Positions 54,805-64,000 of a stretch of 64,000 nt of DNA are shown piece by piece. Each line of letters opens with the position of its first letter. Positions within the stretch are counted from its first letter, which is position 1. The position numbers were made by a program, and so were the translations under genes. Below the pieces are notes generated by a model. That model ran no database searches. It was not told the origin of the DNA and saw only the letters and a program-made list of their open reading frames with translations. Source of the stretch: Paracoccus zhejiangensis (GTDB lineage: Bacteria > Pseudomonadota > Alphaproteobacteria > Rhodobacterales > Rhodobacteraceae); NCBI RefSeq assembly GCF_002847445.1, contig NZ_CP025430.1:3282501-3346500 (forward strand), given 5' to 3'.

Positions 54805-55746
54805 TTATGGGTACTGACGCACGAGTGCATAGCCTGGATGACGAATCAATTTGTCGAAGTTTTGGCAAAGCGTATCAATTACTAGTTTAACGCGCGGGTT
54901 GCGATGGCGGGCGGCGCCATATATTGCCCAGACAGATATTTTCTCACTCTCGTTGGCTTCTTGGAGGAGCGGTATGAGGTCACCTTCAGCAACCTCATAA
55001 TGCACAAAAAAGTCCGGCAGATATGCTATTGCCTCTCCTGAAACTGCATAGAATTTTGCCATCCAATAATCATGAACACTGAACCGTACATTGTAATCGC
55101 CAATCCGCTGTCCATCTGCGTCTTGAAGTAACCAAGGTTCCGCTATTCCCTTGCGCGTATATTCTATGCCGGGCATTTCCCTTATATCCTCAACGGACTT
55201 AGGGGTTCCTAGTCGCTGCAGAAGTAGTGGACTAGCGTAAGCGCGATACCCAACATTGCCTAGCTTTCGACAAACGTGATCAGATGATGGGGCAGTGCCA
55301 ACAAAAATAAGGCAATCAAATTCTGTTTGTTCCGGCAATGGGGTGTCACTAGGGTACATTCGTGTTTCGAAGGATAGCCCCGGATGCTCTCTTGCCAAAT
55401 ACAAAGTTGCTGCACCAATAATGCTGGTCCCAAACTCCGCGCTTCCTAATATCCTCACTTTACCATTCAAGGAGCTATGGGCACGTTGAGCCGCGCTTGC
55501 AGCCAATTCGATGCTATCAAATATACGGCCGGTATTATCTAGAAGGGCACGTCCAGCATCTGTGAGTTGCAAGCCTCTCTGAGAACGATGAAACAATTCA
55601 ACCTCCAGCAAATCCTCTAGGCGGCGGATGCTGTGGCTGAGCGTTGCCTTTGGTACGCCGGAGATCATACCGGCGCGCGTCAGGCTTCCTGTCCTCGCGA
55701 CATGGACGAAATTGCTGATATCCTTGAATTCAACCTTGGTCGTCAT
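54805..55746 (-). CDS. LysR-family transcriptional regulator
   Basis: 313 residues. The N-terminal winged HTH is ISNFVHVARTGSLTRAGMIS, GVPKATLSHSIRRLEDLLEV and ELFHRSQRGLQLTDAGRALL. An effector-binding domain follows (KVRILGSAEFGTSIIGAATL onward). The base composition is clearly more AT-rich than its neighbours, pointing to a different source. It is the only regulator on this side of the catabolic genes and could control them, but it is 0.85 kb from the nearest one with an IS relic between. Confidence 0.92.
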   Translation of the reverse strand: MTTKVEFKDISNFVHVARTGSLTRAGMISGVPKATLSHSIRRLEDLLEVELFHRSQRGLQLTDAGRALLDNTGRIFDSIELAASAAQRAHSSLNGKVRILGSAEFGTSIIGAATLYLAREHPGLSFETRMYPSDTPLPEQTEFDCLIFVGTAPSSDHVCRKLGNVGYRAYASPLLLQRLGTPKSVEDIREMPGIEYTRKGIAEPWLLQDADGQRIGDYNVRFSVHDYWMAKFYAVSGEAIAYLPDFFVHYEVAEGDLIPLLQEANESEKISVWAIYGAARHRNPRVKLVIDTLCQNFDKLIRHPGYALVRQYP

Positions 55747-56572: not shown

Positions 56573-56598
56573 AGGGCCTGCGTATAGACACAGGCCCT
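56573..56598 (-). terminator. hairpin at the 3' end of the ndmA-like operon
   Basis: AGGGCCTG (56573-56580) and CAGGCCCT (56591-56598) are perfect inverted repeats. They overlap the stop codon of the VOC gene, at the end of the minus-strand operon. Confidence 0.5.
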
Positions 56599-57079
56599 AG
56601 TCGAAGTTGACAACCGGAATTTCGGCACCCTCGGGAATGGTCATGGCTGTGATGCGCGCGATGTTGAACTCCGGATCGTTGAAGACCAACTGCCACTGCC
56701 CGTAATAGGTTGCAAACGGCCCCTTGACGATCGACCCGCCAAGCTGGGGCACCTTGTGCGCGATCTCATCTACCGTTGCCCAGTCTTCAACCACGAACGT
56801 CACCATCGTGCCGGCGCTGGATGTTGATGTCCTGCGTCTCTCACGATCCTTCAGGCCCAGAAGCTCATAGGCCGGGACGCCGTTGAAGGCCAGCTGGAAG
56901 CCATTGCCTTGCAGAACCCGGTAGATCGGCGAAGAGGCCTCGGGAATGTCGTCCCAACCCAGGATTGCAGCGTAAAATTGTTTCTGTTTCTCCACATCAT
57001 CGCAGAAGATGTTGTGCATAGGCTGGAACTTGTCTGCACTGGCCATCGGTGTGTCCACGCTCCTCTTGAGATCAGGCAT
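56597..57079 (-). CDS. VOC (glyoxalase/dioxygenase superfamily) protein
   Basis: 160 residues; the start at 57079 overlaps the stop of the upstream gene by eight bases (ATGCCTGA). The VOC fold is visible: HNIFCDDVEKQKQFYAAILG with a metal-position His, RVLQGNGFQLAFNGVPAYEL, TMVTFVVEDWATVDEIAHKV and GQWQLVFNDPEFNIARITAM. The fourth-strand Glu of active glyoxalases reads DPEFN. The reaction is unknown; as last gene of the Rieske operon it may act on the product or bind it. Confidence 0.8.
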   Translation of the reverse strand: MPDLKRSVDTPMASADKFQPMHNIFCDDVEKQKQFYAAILGWDDIPEASSPIYRVLQGNGFQLAFNGVPAYELLGLKDRERRRTSTSSAGTMVTFVVEDWATVDEIAHKVPQLGGSIVKGPFATYYGQWQLVFNDPEFNIARITAMTIPEGAEIPVVNFD

Positions 57080-57443
57080 TGAGGTCGCCGTCGGCGCATC
57101 GAGACGACATCTTTATGCCCAGCGGGGCCGCCAGTCCCGCATCCATCAGCGTCCCGACAAGCTCGGCGTGATAGGCGGCATAGGCTTTCACTGAAACATA
57201 GCGGTCCTCGGGTCTGATGATGTTGAACATCAGCGATCCTTGGCGGACAGTGGGCAGCACCCAGGACTTGTAGGCCCATTCCGGGTCCGCATGCGTGAAG
57301 TAGTCCGAGTTCTTCGGTCGCAGCCATCTTGCGCCGTCATGAGGTTGATCGATATTGCCGACCGACGCATTGAAGGCCCTAAGTGCCTTCTCCGGTTCGG
57401 CGGTGCTTACATACAAGGCCAACTTTTTTCCTTTCCGTTCCAA
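57072..57443 (-). CDS. unrecognised 123-residue protein in the ndmA-like operon
   Basis: It starts at a TTG at 57443, or at a later TTG behind GGAAAGGA near 57422. The sequence has GARWLRPKNSDYFTHADPEW, AYKSWVLPTVRQGSLMFNII and AYAAYHAELVGTLMDAGLAA. No known motif. Its many aromatic and charged residues suggest a small globular protein. It sits between another unknown and the VOC gene, with tight spacing, so a common pathway is likely. Confidence 0.65.
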   Translation of the reverse strand: MERKGKKLALYVSTAEPEKALRAFNASVGNIDQPHDGARWLRPKNSDYFTHADPEWAYKSWVLPTVRQGSLMFNIIRPEDRYVSVKAYAAYHAELVGTLMDAGLAAPLGIKMSSRCADGDLNA

Positions 57444-57473: not shown

Positions 57474-57791
57474 TCAGTCCAGTAGAACCTCATCAAAGCG
57501 CACGTCCATCCACCGGAGGAAGGTTTCCACCAGCCTCGTGTAGTACAGCTTGACCACGTCAGGCGGGATGCCTTTGCCGCCATCGGCCTGAAGTTCGAAG
57601 GTCAACGTGCCCGCATCGACGCTTGGCACAAGCCTTGCGCCGATATCCGACACGTCTTCGGAATGCTGGTAGGAGGTATCAGCCTCCAGCATCCAGCCTT
57701 CCGCCTTCCCCCACGCTTCTTCCTGGACAATTCTCCGGTTGAACTCCCGAAGCAGCGCATCGGGAGAATTGGTCATGAAATGGACTGACAC
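57474..57791 (-). CDS. unrecognised 105-residue protein in the ndmA-like operon
   Basis: It starts at a GTG at 57791 with AGGAG upstream. Patterns: SPDALLREFNRRIVQEEAWG, TLTFELQADGGKGIPPDVVK and LYYTRLVETFLRWMDVRFDE. The size would fit a small companion subunit, but it does not look like the classical beta subunit of ring-hydroxylating oxygenases (about 160-180 residues). It follows the oxygenase gene by 29 bases. Confidence 0.65.
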   Translation of the reverse strand: MSVHFMTNSPDALLREFNRRIVQEEAWGKAEGWMLEADTSYQHSEDVSDIGARLVPSVDAGTLTFELQADGGKGIPPDVVKLYYTRLVETFLRWMDVRFDEVLLD

Positions 57792-57820: not shown

Positions 57821-58900
57821 TCAGCCCGCGACTGCTTGCAGTTCAGGGTGAATCCGGTCGCTTTCAAGAACCGGCGTCAGGAGAGCTTTCTCGAAAGCCT
57901 CCTTGCCCTGCGCGTGGGCGTTTTCCAGTTCCTTGATCCATTTCCTGTACTGTATCGAGATCTTGTCGGTCACGACCGACAGTTCGTCGTCGTAAATCTC
58001 TTCTGGCCACTGCGATTCAATGACCGGCTGGTCCTCGGCAAAGACCAGGTCGTTGAAGGCGATGTGGGGATGATCCGAATCGTTCAAGCTCTTCTCGCGG
58101 GCGAAGATCAGGAAGTTCTTCGTTTGCTTCGCGTTCACCGGGCAGGACACGTTGAAGAGGACGTGAAGGTTGTTCCCCACATATTTTTGAACCGCCAAGT
58201 TGATCGTGAACGGCATACTGCAATGGTAGGTGAAGTTGCCGATGGGTGCCTGATCGGGAACATCCATGCCCGGAGGGGTGTCATAGACAAAGCGCAGCTG
58301 GCCCTTCACGCGATCGATCGGCACGATGGGCGGCTCGGCGTTGTTCGGATCGAACAGCGTGCCCGGGTGAACGAACGCGAAGTGCGAAAAGTCCGTGAAG
58401 TTTTCCCAGCGGCGCGGTGCGCTGGCATTCCACCAGTAGGGCTCCTGCACGACTATCTTCATCCTCGGGTCATCAGCGACGCTGAAATACGGGATTTCCG
58501 TCACGTTCCACGAGCTGTCCAGACGGACCCAGACCAAACCGTACTTCAGTTCACATTGGTAGCTTGGAACCTTGGCGCGCGAGGAAATCTTCTGCGTCGG
58601 ACATGCCGGCATATGGGTGCACTTGCCCTCGGCATTGTACATCCATCCGTGGTACGGGCACTGAAGCTGGTCGTCCTTGACCTTGCCGCCGGACAGCTTG
58701 GCCGAACGGTGGACGCACTGGTCCTTCATTGCGATCATCTTGCCGTCGAGACGAGCAAGAACGACCTTCTCGTCAAGCAAGGTGACGGCCATGGGGCCAT
58801 TGCCCAGCGGGTCGGCCTTCTCGAATTCGTCGAGAGTCGCGACCGGATGCCAAAAATGGCGGAGAAATTCCATGTTCTCGATTAAGGGACGTGCGCCCAT
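57821..58900 (-). CDS. Rieske non-heme iron oxygenase of the NdmA/NdmB methylxanthine N-demethylase type
   Basis: 359 residues from the ATG ending at 58900, RBS AAGGA. The Rieske cluster ligands are Cys62/His64 (QCVHRSAKLS) and Cys81/His84 (QCPYHGWMYN). Catalytic iron ligands are in ENFTDFSHFAFVHPGTLFD (His173, His178), with the bridging Asp170. The stretch around PYWWNA, RRWENF and TLFDPNNAEPPIVP is, from memory, nearly that of NdmA/NdmB, which remove N1 or N3 methyl groups of caffeine-type purines as formaldehyde. Regiospecificity cannot be read. It needs a reductase (NdmD type) not found here. First gene of a four-gene operon. Confidence 0.85.
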   Translation of the reverse strand: MGARPLIENMEFLRHFWHPVATLDEFEKADPLGNGPMAVTLLDEKVVLARLDGKMIAMKDQCVHRSAKLSGGKVKDDQLQCPYHGWMYNAEGKCTHMPACPTQKISSRAKVPSYQCELKYGLVWVRLDSSWNVTEIPYFSVADDPRMKIVVQEPYWWNASAPRRWENFTDFSHFAFVHPGTLFDPNNAEPPIVPIDRVKGQLRFVYDTPPGMDVPDQAPIGNFTYHCSMPFTINLAVQKYVGNNLHVLFNVSCPVNAKQTKNFLIFAREKSLNDSDHPHIAFNDLVFAEDQPVIESQWPEEIYDDELSVVTDKISIQYRKWIKELENAHAQGKEAFEKALLTPVLESDRIHPELQAVAG

Positions 58901-59443: not shown

Positions 59444-60574
<1,131 letters not shown>

Positions 60575-60590: not shown

Positions 60591-61463
60591 ATGCTTGGTC
60601 AACGAATTCAGATTGCGCGCCAAAGCCTCGACATGGAGATTGCCGAGTTTGCCTCGGCGCTTGGCATGGATGGCAACGCCGCCTCCCTTGCCAGGTGGGA
60701 GGCAGACGAGGCATCGCCGACACTTCGTGAGCTGACGGCCATCGGTTCGCTGGCGGGCATCTCGCTCTGCTTTTTCCTGCCGCCGCTTGTCAGAGACATC
60801 AAGGTGCAGAGATACTTCGGCGATGACGTCGACTCTCTGGCGATCAGGGCACGGGCACTGGTGGCGACATATATTGCCGTCGAGAACTATATCTCGGCCG
60901 AGTTTCTGGCCACCGGAACCATCACCCCGCCCAGCAGGATGGACCTTTGCGATCCGAAGCATCAGACTGCTACCGGCATGGCAGACATGATCCGGCATCG
61001 ACTGGGGATCGGTTCCCGCTCGTTTCGAAGCCTGTCGGATGAGCTTGAGCTGAATGGCCTGAAGATTTTTGCTGCGCGCCTGCCTGCCAGAATAACCGGC
61101 ATAAGCTGCGACATTTGCTTGGGAGACGATCCGGCACATCCCTTTTTTGTTGCCTCAAGTATTGCTTCACACCGGGAGACACAGGAAAACCTGTTCGACT
61201 GGGCCTTCTCGGAGGGCATAAGCGCAATCTGCGGCGATAGCGCCGAGCTTCATTCGGAGATAAGGACGACTTTCCTTCGGTCGTGCTTTCCGATCTCCAA
61301 GCCATCGGAAATCCTTACCTTGCGCCATACCAAGAAGGGCGGCCACACGGATAGGTATACGAGTGCCATTTATCGAAAGGTTAGAGGGGGTACCGCAAGC
61401 GGGCGCTTGTCGAAGTCGGATGCCGAGCGTATCGAAAAGATCCTACGCAGCAGCGAAGCCTAG
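60591..61463 (+). CDS. XRE-family regulator with degenerate ImmA/IrrE-like domain
   Basis: 290 residues, 16 bases after flhA. An N-terminal HTH: IQIARQSLDMEIAEFASALG, ASLARWEADEASPTLRELTA. The C-terminal half, ELNGLKIFAARLPARITGIS, CDICLGDDPAHPFFVASSIA and SHRETQENLFDWAFSEGISA, follows the plan of COG2856 regulators, but the zinc-protease HExxH is absent (TQENLFDWAF in its place). It may therefore sense rather than cleave. Its tight link with flhA suggests control of formaldehyde or demethylation genes. Confidence 0.75.
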   Translation: MLGQRIQIARQSLDMEIAEFASALGMDGNAASLARWEADEASPTLRELTAIGSLAGISLCFFLPPLVRDIKVQRYFGDDVDSLAIRARALVATYIAVENYISAEFLATGTITPPSRMDLCDPKHQTATGMADMIRHRLGIGSRSFRSLSDELELNGLKIFAARLPARITGISCDICLGDDPAHPFFVASSIASHRETQENLFDWAFSEGISAICGDSAELHSEIRTTFLRSCFPISKPSEILTLRHTKKGGHTDRYTSAIYRKVRGGTASGRLSKSDAERIEKILRSSEA

Positions 61464-61806: not shown

Positions 61807-62433
61807 TCAGTCGAAGATGTTGATCCCGGGCATCAGCTTGAAGCGCGGAAGATTGACGAACCTGCGTATCCAGCGTTGGATCGCTGGGTAGTAGAATAGC
61901 TCGATGCCGCCGTCCCCTGCCAGCGCCACATAGGGGAAGCACGCGATATCCGCCACCGTGGGGCGTGATCCCGCGATCCAGTTGAACCCTTGCAGTTCCT
62001 GGTTGGCCAGATGGTCATCCAGGACACGGAACAGCTTGTGAGCGTCGGCCCTTGCCTGCGCCACATCGAGGTCATAGCCCAGCACGTCATGCAGCCGCGC
62101 CGCCGAGGCCGTGGACGTGATGCTATCAGCGAAGGCCAGCCATTGCGCGACCCGACCCAGTTCGGACGGATCGTTGACCGGCCACCACGTTCCTGTCGGA
62201 TCGTAGCGCGAGGCGAGATACACGAGAATGGCCTGCGCATCCCGGATATAGGCTCCGTCGTCCTCCAGAACCGGGATCTGTCCCAACGGATTTATCTGGA
62301 GGAATGCATCGGACTTGTGTTCACGACCCGGAAAGAAGTCCACGGCTTGCTTTTCATGGGAAAGCTCAAGAAAATCCAGCAACAGCCGTATCTTGTAGCA
62401 ATTGCCGGACAGGACATAGTCAAACAGCTTCAT
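61807..62433 (-). CDS. glutathione S-transferase-like protein (NdmE-like)
   Basis: 208 residues from the ATG ending at 62433, one base after the stop of the oxygenase gene. The thioredoxin-like N-domain has MKLFDYVLSGNCYKIRLLLD and INPLGQIPVLEDDGAYIRDA (cis-Pro and Ser/Asp site region); the helical C-domain has FNWIAGSRPTVADIACFPYV. In the caffeine pathway a GST-like protein, NdmE, holds the Rieske-less NdmC and NdmD together. The same gene pairing here argues for that structural role rather than conjugation chemistry. Confidence 0.85.
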   Translation of the reverse strand: MKLFDYVLSGNCYKIRLLLDFLELSHEKQAVDFFPGREHKSDAFLQINPLGQIPVLEDDGAYIRDAQAILVYLASRYDPTGTWWPVNDPSELGRVAQWLAFADSITSTASAARLHDVLGYDLDVAQARADAHKLFRVLDDHLANQELQGFNWIAGSRPTVADIACFPYVALAGDGGIELFYYPAIQRWIRRFVNLPRFKLMPGINIFD

Positions 62434-62434
62434 C

Positions 62435-63289
62435 TCATGCCGCCTCGTTGAAGAGGGCGACCCCCCACTGAAGTTCATTGGCCTTCAGCCAGCGGCGGTA
62501 GGCGATCGAGGACGCGTCCGCGCGGGTCGGCAATTCCCAACGGGGATCGAGCGGCAGCTTCCGGGGAACCTGGTTCTCGAGGATCATCCGGTCCTGCAGG
62601 AAGATGTTCTGCTGGAAGTGGAGAAGGCCGGTGTCGGTGTTTTCCTCGTCAAAGACCAGAATGAACGAGTGGACGATACACTCGTCCTCTTCCACGGGCT
62701 GGATGAACAGCCCGACCAGATCCCAGACATTCTCTCGGATCGGGCAGGTCTTGTACAGGATCGTCGAATAGGGATGCGGGACGCGATACTTGTATTCGGT
62801 CATCTGGCCGCCCGATGCCGCCGCGGAAGCCATGGGCTGGAAGAACTTGCATTTGGTCGCCCAGATTTCGTCCTTTTCCGCATCCATGCTGACGTCGTAG
62901 CTCTCGACGCTCGGATGTTCTTCCACGCCGAGGATGTCGGTGTGAACGAAGGGAAAATGAGCCATGTCGAGGAAGTTCTCGACGCAGCGCAGTCCCGAGC
63001 AGCGAACGCCCACGCCACCTGCGGTCACAAGACGCCGGTCCGGCTCGTCGAACTCCGGCATGTCATAAAGCGGGCGCGGCGTATCGCTCAGCGTGGTCCA
63101 GAGATGGCCGTAGCGGATCTGCGTCAGAAGGCTGCGCCCATCGGCATCGTTCACCGAAAGAACGCCAGCCGCGTCGCTCACGGTCAGATCCTGCGAAAGC
63201 AGTCGGACGGGTTTCGCTTCCGCACCTTCGAAATCGGGAAGGCGACCGATTGCATACCATTGCGAACGGGTGAAAGTGTCGGGTGTCAT
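62435..63289 (-). CDS. Rieske-less mononuclear-iron oxygenase component (NdmC-like)
   Basis: 284 residues from the ATG ending at 63289 (RBS GAGGAG). The catalytic iron motif ENFLDMAHFPFVHTDILG (Asn105, Asp108, His111, His116) is intact, and LQDRMILENQVPRKLPLD near the end supplies the expected third-ligand region. There is no Cys-x-His / Cys-x2-His pair anywhere in the N-terminal 100 residues, so no Rieske cluster. NdmC, the caffeine N7-demethylase, is built the same way. Electrons must come from another polypeptide, most simply the Rieske-only protein encoded 57 bases upstream. Confidence 0.85.
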   Translation of the reverse strand: MTPDTFTRSQWYAIGRLPDFEGAEAKPVRLLSQDLTVSDAAGVLSVNDADGRSLLTQIRYGHLWTTLSDTPRPLYDMPEFDEPDRRLVTAGGVGVRCSGLRCVENFLDMAHFPFVHTDILGVEEHPSVESYDVSMDAEKDEIWATKCKFFQPMASAAASGGQMTEYKYRVPHPYSTILYKTCPIRENVWDLVGLFIQPVEEDECIVHSFILVFDEENTDTGLLHFQQNIFLQDRMILENQVPRKLPLDPRWELPTRADASSIAYRRWLKANELQWGVALFNEAA

Positions 63290-63346
63290 AGTGTTTCTCC
63301 TCGCTTGTCGAAGTGAGACGATCAATTTGCTAGGCTGCGATGCCTA

Positions 63347-64000
63347 TCAAGCGGCGCTTGACGCCTTGAATACCTGCCGCAGACGGGTGGACAGCTTGCT
63401 GACGGCGATCACGACATCCTCCGATGCACTGGCCGGAACCGAGGTGTGGATCATCGCCCCGTGTTCCTTCATGTCCAGGAACGCCAAAAGGACTTTTCCC
63501 TCCACTTCGGGAACGCGGACGATCGCGGCGTGATCGGTGATCTTCGATACCAGTTCGGCGCCAATGCCTTTGGCAAGCTCATTCAGGCTAGCCGGGGCAA
63601 GGTCGATATGGACCGAACGGTTGGGAACCCAGTCGCCATCGATCGACGGCGCCGCCGTCGTCTCGCCCGAGTTTGCAACCCAGATGAACCCGCCGGAATC
63701 CGCCGCGCGATAGGCCTTGGCGCGGATCGTCTTGGGCGGAGTCAGGTCAGGATGCGCCGGGATGCCCGCGCAGGCACCCGCCCCGTCATAGGACCAGCCA
63801 TGATACAGGCATGTCAGCGTGTTGCCCCGGACGATGCCGTAGGACAGGCGCATGCCCCGGTGGGGGCATCTGTTTTCCCATGCGCGGATCTGGCCGTCCT
63901 CACCGCGCCACAGGGCGATGTCGTTGTCGGCGATCACGACACGTCCTGCCGTCTTGGGAAGGACGTAGTTCTGAAGTCCGGCAGGGAACCACCCGGCTTC
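63347..64000 (-). CDS. Rieske-only protein lacking the catalytic iron site (partial at window edge)
   Basis: At least 217 residues; the frame is open to the end of the window (EAGWFPAGLQNYVLPKTAGR at the edge), so the true start is beyond 64000. The Rieske ligands are NRCPHRGMRLSYG and TLTCLYHGWSYDG. The rest is oxygenase-like, but the motif with two His and an Asp is absent, and the chain stops about 100 residues after the Rieske domain. It is thus the complement of the downstream NdmC-like protein: one has the electron-transfer cluster, the other the active site. Confidence 0.82.
   Translation of the reverse strand, partial: EAGWFPAGLQNYVLPKTAGRVVIADNDIALWRGEDGQIRAWENRCPHRGMRLSYGIVRGNTLTCLYHGWSYDGAGACAGIPAHPDLTPPKTIRAKAYRAADSGGFIWVANSGETTAAPSIDGDWVPNRSVHIDLAPASLNELAKGIGAELVSKITDHAAIVRVPEVEGKVLLAFLDMKEHGAMIHTSVPASASEDVVIAVSKLSTRLRQVFKASSAA

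Follow-up and report, generated by a model that had tools for sequence, protein, structure and literature searches.

In NdmCDE, the 7-methylxanthine N7-demethylase of Pseudomonas putida CBB5, the parts of a Rieske oxygenase are distributed over several proteins. Passages of a review describe NdmC as having no Rieske cluster, NdmD as carrying an extra one and NdmE as a GST-like protein with a postulated structural role; they present NdmCDE as very unique among Rieske oxygenases, and attribute to the 2013 NdmCDE paper a report of 18 homologous clusters, many in Sinorhizobium and Mesorhizobium (PMC4408171). That paper may already touch on split loci such as the one described here. NdmA and NdmB, the VanA-type enzymes, SxtT and SxtDIOX share with our locus the catalytic fold (by homology), the iron ligands and the kind of reductase, but carry cluster and iron on one chain, where we find them on two. 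Three-component Rieske dioxygenases with a Rieske ferredoxin also have a separate small Rieske protein; their oxygenase, however, still has its own Rieske cluster. HpxDE, a molybdenum-independent xanthine hydroxylase of Klebsiella, has a purine context and distant similarity (28% and 36%) in common with our system, but HpxD is a full-length oxygenase, and no GST partner lies within the 12.7-kb HpxDE stretch examined. A literature search, with most subscription journals outside its scope, found no paper that describes an NdmC-type subunit with a stand-alone Rieske partner, nor any on homarine together with a Rieske oxygenase or on 8-oxoguanine deaminase together with one.

The window, a 64,000-nucleotide stretch of Paracoccus zhejiangensis DNA (positions 3282501-3346500 of contig 1 in a 4.64-Mb genome), ends inside a minus-strand cluster with the reading order ROa, cat1, R1, GST1, reductase, R2, cat2, GST2 (Table 1). 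The cluster comprises two triads, with the Rieske and catalytic genes in reversed order between them, and a single reductase in the middle. A first-pass annotation had read the end of the window as adjacent minus-strand genes for a Rieske, a catalytic and a GST-like protein. Pfam domains bear this out, as do an own start and an own stop in each of R2, cat2 and GST2; GGGGAG precedes R2 and GAGGAG precedes cat2 (by eye). The extension past 64000 that it had called for located the start of R2 18 bases outside the window, and separate HMM searches found a Rieske domain in R2 and none in cat2. The annotation had also suggested that the Rieske part stands alone, unlike the NdmD fusion, and we agree: R2 is a separate gene, the reductase just beyond 64000 has no Rieske domain by Pfam search, and a whole-genome search gave nine Rieske hits, not one of them fused to a reductase. 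Four of the nine are the cluster's own genes; the other five, named by eye as two oxygenase-like proteins, a NirD-like protein, a bc1-type Rieske protein and a small ferredoxin-like protein, show no match to the reductase. The triad is confirmed as three separate genes, neither a sequencing error nor a chance arrangement. A search of L010 for riboswitches or other RNA elements gave no Rfam match up to E = 1, and in seven relatives one unrelated sRNA exceeded the gathering score.

Table 1. Features of the cluster and its surroundings. Plain coordinates are window positions; L010 positions equal window positions minus 54000.
Feature	Position	Strand	Details
ROa, full Rieske oxygenase	L010:13303-14358	-	55% to NdmA, 54% to NdmB
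cat1, Rieske-less catalytic gene	L010:12476-13297	-	iron ligands kept
R1, Rieske-only gene	L010:11946-12479	-	Gly63 in place of ligand Cys
GST1, GST gene	L010:11308-11949	-	
Reductase, VanB-type	L010:10364-11311	-	Fer2 (2Fe-2S ferredoxin) and NAD-binding domains
R2, stand-alone Rieske protein	63347..64018 (L010:9347-10018)	-	223 aa; sole Pfam match Rieske PF00355, 78 bits
cat2, Rieske-less catalytic subunit, NdmC homologue	62435-63289	-	284 aa; VanA_C 70 bits; KshA_C 20 bits, below cut-off
GST2, GST-like, NdmE homologue	61807-62433	-	GST_N and GST_C
290-aa ORF between GST2 and the dehydrogenase gene	60591-61463	+	no Pfam/NCBIfam match
S-(hydroxymethyl)glutathione dehydrogenase (class III alcohol dehydrogenase), formaldehyde disposal	59444..60574	+	TIGR02818 595 bits, cut-off 544; start set by homology, with ORF residue 58 onward aligned to the Komagataeibacter and P. 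putida enzymes
ROb, full-length Rieske oxygenase, NdmA-like	57821..58900	-	554 bits to NdmA 6ick
Two small proteins beside the NdmA-like gene	57474-57791 and 57072-57443		no NCBIfam match
Small protein	56597-57079		
LysR-type regulator, candidate cluster member at its far end	54805..55746	-	
Apparent broken LysR remnant	L010:14850-15080	-	resembles the 54805-55746 gene (by eye)
Transposase and helper ATPase	L011:1118-3366		IS21-type look (by eye); sign of mobile surroundings

The Rieske ligands of R2 (C51, H53, C70 and H73) are all kept in 119 of 119 rows of an alignment of R2 with 118 of the 120 database relatives listed for it (all but P0036 and P0046); of the named relatives in that list, Paracoccus proteins stand nearest to R2 (95%). 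In cat2, N105, D108, H111 and H116 are kept in 90/90 rows and D233 in 89/90, with one gap (cat2 plus 89 of 120 listed relatives), and the pattern N-x2-D-x2-H-x4-H is kept in all 129 catalytic proteins. D108, H111, H116 and D233 make up the 2-His-1-carboxylate iron site and the bridging Asp (Asp108), so that cat2 has what defines the catalytic part of a Rieske oxygenase; neither cat2 nor R2 is a single-chain alpha subunit with both Rieske cluster and iron site. The GST partners keep Pro54, the cis-proline of GSTs, in 120/120 rows and Cys12 in 101/120, and this conservation makes a role in glutathione chemistry, for example in catching formaldehyde, possible.

As a reference for the Ndm proteins we used the P. 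putida plasmid pTmex-577K. It encodes two oxygenases with PDB matches to NdmA (E = 1e-229) and NdmB (E = 1e-235), and a protein of 588 aa that hits the ferredoxin domain of NdmD; the catalytic and GST genes were taken as NdmC and NdmE because they adjoin these matches. The Paracoccus cat2 is 48.6% identical to this NdmC over 280 aligned positions, and in the same block GST2 is 52.9% identical to NdmE over 206, marking the two as homologues. R2 is 38.3% identical to the first half of NdmD over 107 residues, the reductase is 40.4% identical to its second half, and ROb is 67% identical to NdmA. The two systems thus have in common a Rieske-less catalytic subunit, a GST-like partner, a VanB-type reductase, a Rieske domain with an extra C-terminal domain, and NdmA-like and formaldehyde-disposal neighbours. 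They differ in that the Rieske part and the reductase, fused in NdmD, are two genes here, in the gene order Rieske-catalytic-GST, and in the second triad with its ligand-deficient Rieske paralogue.

The first-pass claim that the catalytic protein has no Rieske cluster holds in the alignments as well as in the domain search, where only VanA_C exceeds its cut-off. The cat2 profile (1-284) aligns end to end with ROb (7-340; E = 1.5e-26), interrupted by two adjoining gaps that together remove about 50 residues at the four cluster ligands of ROb, and the first ~50 residues of cat2 match the outer strands of the R2 Rieske domain with a probability of 95.9%. The alignments indicate that cat2 is an oxygenase with its cluster-binding loops missing. 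In a tree of 70 of the 129 catalytic sequences (near-copies and pieces <200 aa omitted), the catalytic-only subunits come out as a single clade, apart from six full oxygenases; its SH-aLRT is 98 in the 76-row tree and 96 after three rows (L102, L103 and L017) are dropped. HpxD lies outside this clade, and cat2 is not its orthologue. Within the clade, cat2 groups with rhizobial split subunits and not with known NdmC, on a tree that does not resolve the deep branches; N7 specificity therefore does not follow from orthology.

We propose, at a probability of about 0.66, that R2, cat2 and GST2 form an NdmCDE-type purine oxygenase with a separate Rieske subunit, the most likely reaction being methylxanthine N-demethylation. 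Alongside the observed gene anatomy, homology, co-occurrence and ligand conservation, we infer the complex, its electron route, its substrate and the role of its GST. Electrons from NADH would enter the separate VanB-type reductase, the counterpart of the NdmD C-terminal half, pass to the [2Fe-2S] cluster of R2 and cross by way of the conserved bridging Asp108 to the mononuclear iron in cat2. In Rieske oxygenases, electrons normally leave one subunit for the iron of its neighbour, according to part of one account (PMC12445004), and a split chain would therefore need no new chemistry. GST2 would help the R2 and cat2 chains to assemble, as proposed for NdmE. The position attacked would be N7, by elimination, because an NdmA-like and an NdmA/B-like enzyme are also present, and the released formaldehyde would pass to the S-(hydroxymethyl)glutathione dehydrogenase.

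The split arrangement is not an isolated oddity. A genome scan gave 562 confirmed matches, of which the best 80 were retained; it favours the split form because it was seeded with cat2 relatives. Three such separate genes lie together in 79/80 loci; in the 80th (L017) the match sits at the very end of a contig and no Rieske partner is seen there. Across an evenly drawn sample of 289 genomes of the window's class, its own genome included, six have a catalytic-only gene at E up to 1e-40, for eight genes in all, and each of the eight adjoins a Rieske partner (seven stand-alone, one fused). In the window's own family the catalytic gene occurs in 18 of 248 genomes (E up to 1e-30). Rhizobiaceae, the family of Rhizobium pisi, yielded 43 genomes with a catalytic gene out of 199, with 66 genes in 44 loci, and in every locus the contig carries a Rieske partner less than 9 kb away. 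Thirty-one of these loci are split (21 with one catalytic gene, 10 with two) and 13 are NdmD-fused (12 with two, one with one), as called from the open frame around the Rieske match (216-356 versus 591-853 aa); domain inspection agrees with the call for 7/13 fused and 11/31 split loci. The query profile came from split-type proteins, and the fused type still scores at least 327 bits against it. The split form is thus common, and it outnumbers the fused form in the Rhizobiaceae sampled. On the catalytic tree the split/fused label requires three changes, or two after the three rows are dropped, and on that reduced tree a single fused clade is not rejected (AU p 0.49). Of 11 genomes tested, three gave no similar reductase at an E-value limit of 1e-20.

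Some loci have fewer Rieske than catalytic genes. Whole-genome searches of the ten Rhizobiaceae genomes with two catalytic genes in a split locus returned a single R-type gene in each, and in Paracoccus R2 might serve both cat1 and cat2. In R1 the third ligand, a Cys, is replaced by Gly63. The ligand Cys is missing from all five R1 genes of the loci examined (four Gly, one Asp), and the full Rieske motif is kept in the other 111 of 116 Rieske partners. A search returned 41 proteins, 38 of them with SAGRN, an R1 signature label that we coined here and that comes from no database; the Cys is missing in 32 of the 38 (14 Gly, 11 Asp, 5 Ala, 2 Ser) and kept in six. Another Cys lies within six residues before the site in 17 of the 32 and might act as a stand-in ligand in those proteins; the R1 of our cluster has none. 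In 397 genomes from the order of Rhizobium pisi, 60 have a match in a search for R1-type proteins, all at or below 132 bits, and on score alone these were taken as ordinary R-type partners, fusions or oxygenases. The dN/dS of R1 is 0.155-0.300 in ten pairs, by which measure it is under purifying selection and not decaying. A broader, tentative reading would make the system a plug-in oxygenase, in which one Rieske subunit supplies several interchangeable catalytic subunits of one cell and R1 is a structural or regulatory stand-in. The cluster-deficient R1 lineage would then be kept within mixed complexes, and the chains would be complementary remnants of oxygenases, the cluster chain having lost the iron site and the catalytic chain the cluster.

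The genomic surroundings bear on the substrate. Counted with our own score cut-offs in the 67 of 80 scan loci of at least 15 kb, a BMP-type ABC transporter occurs in 59, an 8-oxoguanine-deaminase-like gene in 47, a guanine-deaminase-like gene in seven, a related reductase in four and an S-(hydroxymethyl)glutathione dehydrogenase in two. Curated models confirm a guanine deaminase and an 8-oxoguanine deaminase in L112, an 8-oxoguanine deaminase in L096 and a guanine deaminase in the fused locus L117; the R. leguminosarum amidohydrolase (L093) falls under the 8-oxoguanine deaminase cut-off (370 versus 532). Because of its deaminase and transporter neighbours, the family as a whole is tied to purines. 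Five loci, four with two catalytic genes (L112, L113, L114, L119) and one with one (L115), have a single Rieske gene each amid purine-deaminase-like and BMP-type ABC transporter genes, and in L112 a xanthine-dehydrogenase-like gene sits beside a catalytic gene. The split oxygenase might instead hydroxylate a carbon of the purine ring, such as C8 of xanthine or guanine, and remove no methyl group; the 8-oxoguanine deaminase near many relatives would act on the product. The deaminase and transporter counts and the scarcity of formaldehyde dehydrogenases agree with such chemistry, as does the distant relationship to HpxD, annotated as a molybdenum-independent xanthine hydroxylase subunit, and since most relatives have no formaldehyde dehydrogenase in the stretch examined, ring hydroxylation retains some probability. 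We nevertheless regard it as unlikely for the Paracoccus enzyme, given that cat2 is far nearer NdmC (49%) than HpxD (28%) and that its cluster contains a formaldehyde dehydrogenase and an NdmA-like enzyme. Together, the NdmA-like and NdmA/B-like oxygenases and the dehydrogenase would fit methylxanthine N-demethylation, and in its formaldehyde disposal the Paracoccus cluster resembles those of P. putida and of Paraburkholderia caffeinilytica from tea-plantation soil.

Small and separately encoded, R2 could instead act like the soluble Rieske ferredoxin of three-component oxygenases, with no more than passing contact to cat2 and no place as a subunit of the enzyme; one source indeed names several relatives nitrite reductase/ring-hydroxylating ferredoxin subunit. 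This we consider quite improbable. Among solved structures R2 is nearest to the Rieske domains of oxygenases (SxtT 93 bits, NdmA 55) and not to the ~110-aa ferredoxins (at most 26 bits), cat2 itself lacks a cluster that could accept the electrons, and R2 has a second domain in common with NdmD. This C-terminal domain of ~100 residues matches the stretch between Rieske domain and reductase in 13 NdmD-type fusions, with hhalign probabilities of 96.6 and 97.8% for two choices of the fusion leading the alignment. Both domains that make up the non-reductase half of NdmD have their counterpart in R2, so NdmD looks like a fusion of an R2-type protein with a reductase. Whether R2 is itself a degenerate oxygenase, as the first-pass annotation had it, received a mixed answer. 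With the IW motif and the first 70 catalytic columns removed, a 25-column local match to the catalytic domain scored above 100 of 100 shuffles, but the domain-wide match lost significance, its score being reached by 14/100 full and 43/100 block shuffles (1/100 block shuffles before the IW motif was removed). Before the removal, P was 0.00057 against the catalytic profile and 0.0076 against an unrelated GST profile. Kinship of this domain with the oxygenase catalytic domain is suggestive only. Least credible of all is an artefact, in which a normal oxygenase was broken by a frameshift or is decaying as a pseudogene; R2 without an iron site and cat2 without a cluster might look like its halves, but we reject this reading, as no frameshift joining the two genes was found, starts and stops are separate, the genes recur together in the scan, their order differs between the two triads, and for every one of the eight genes compared dN/dS stays <0.4 across all ten pairs.

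Nine genes of the cluster also occur on plasmid pKNA08 of Komagataeibacter nataicola (L092), from a kombucha tea culture, where they are 89-99% identical to ours (cat2 99.3%, R1 88.7%). The ROb block is inverted there, no BMP transporter lies in the stretch seen, and about 9 kb on, past insertion sequences, are an S-formylglutathione hydrolase, a class III alcohol dehydrogenase 62% identical to that of the window, and FrmR. The plasmid was typed as conjugative. It has a LysR gene ~2 kb from ROb; two hypothetical proteins likewise adjoin its ROb, and a neighbour annotated as VOC family is the likely counterpart, matched without alignment, of the small protein at 56597-57079. Between pKNA08 and P. 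versutus (L012) the silent-site distance of cat2 is only 0.036, and transfer between bacterial orders therefore looks recent. In part of a metagenome study of cacao fermentation, methylxanthine demethylases are attributed to Acetobacteraceae and Paracoccus (PMC12417404).

Should the stand-alone form work as we propose, the NdmCDE exception would be a single branch within a broad family of alphaproteobacterial purine oxygenases. A cluster subunit could then be swapped or shared between active sites, and electron transfer from Rieske cluster to iron would become directly testable with separately purified parts.
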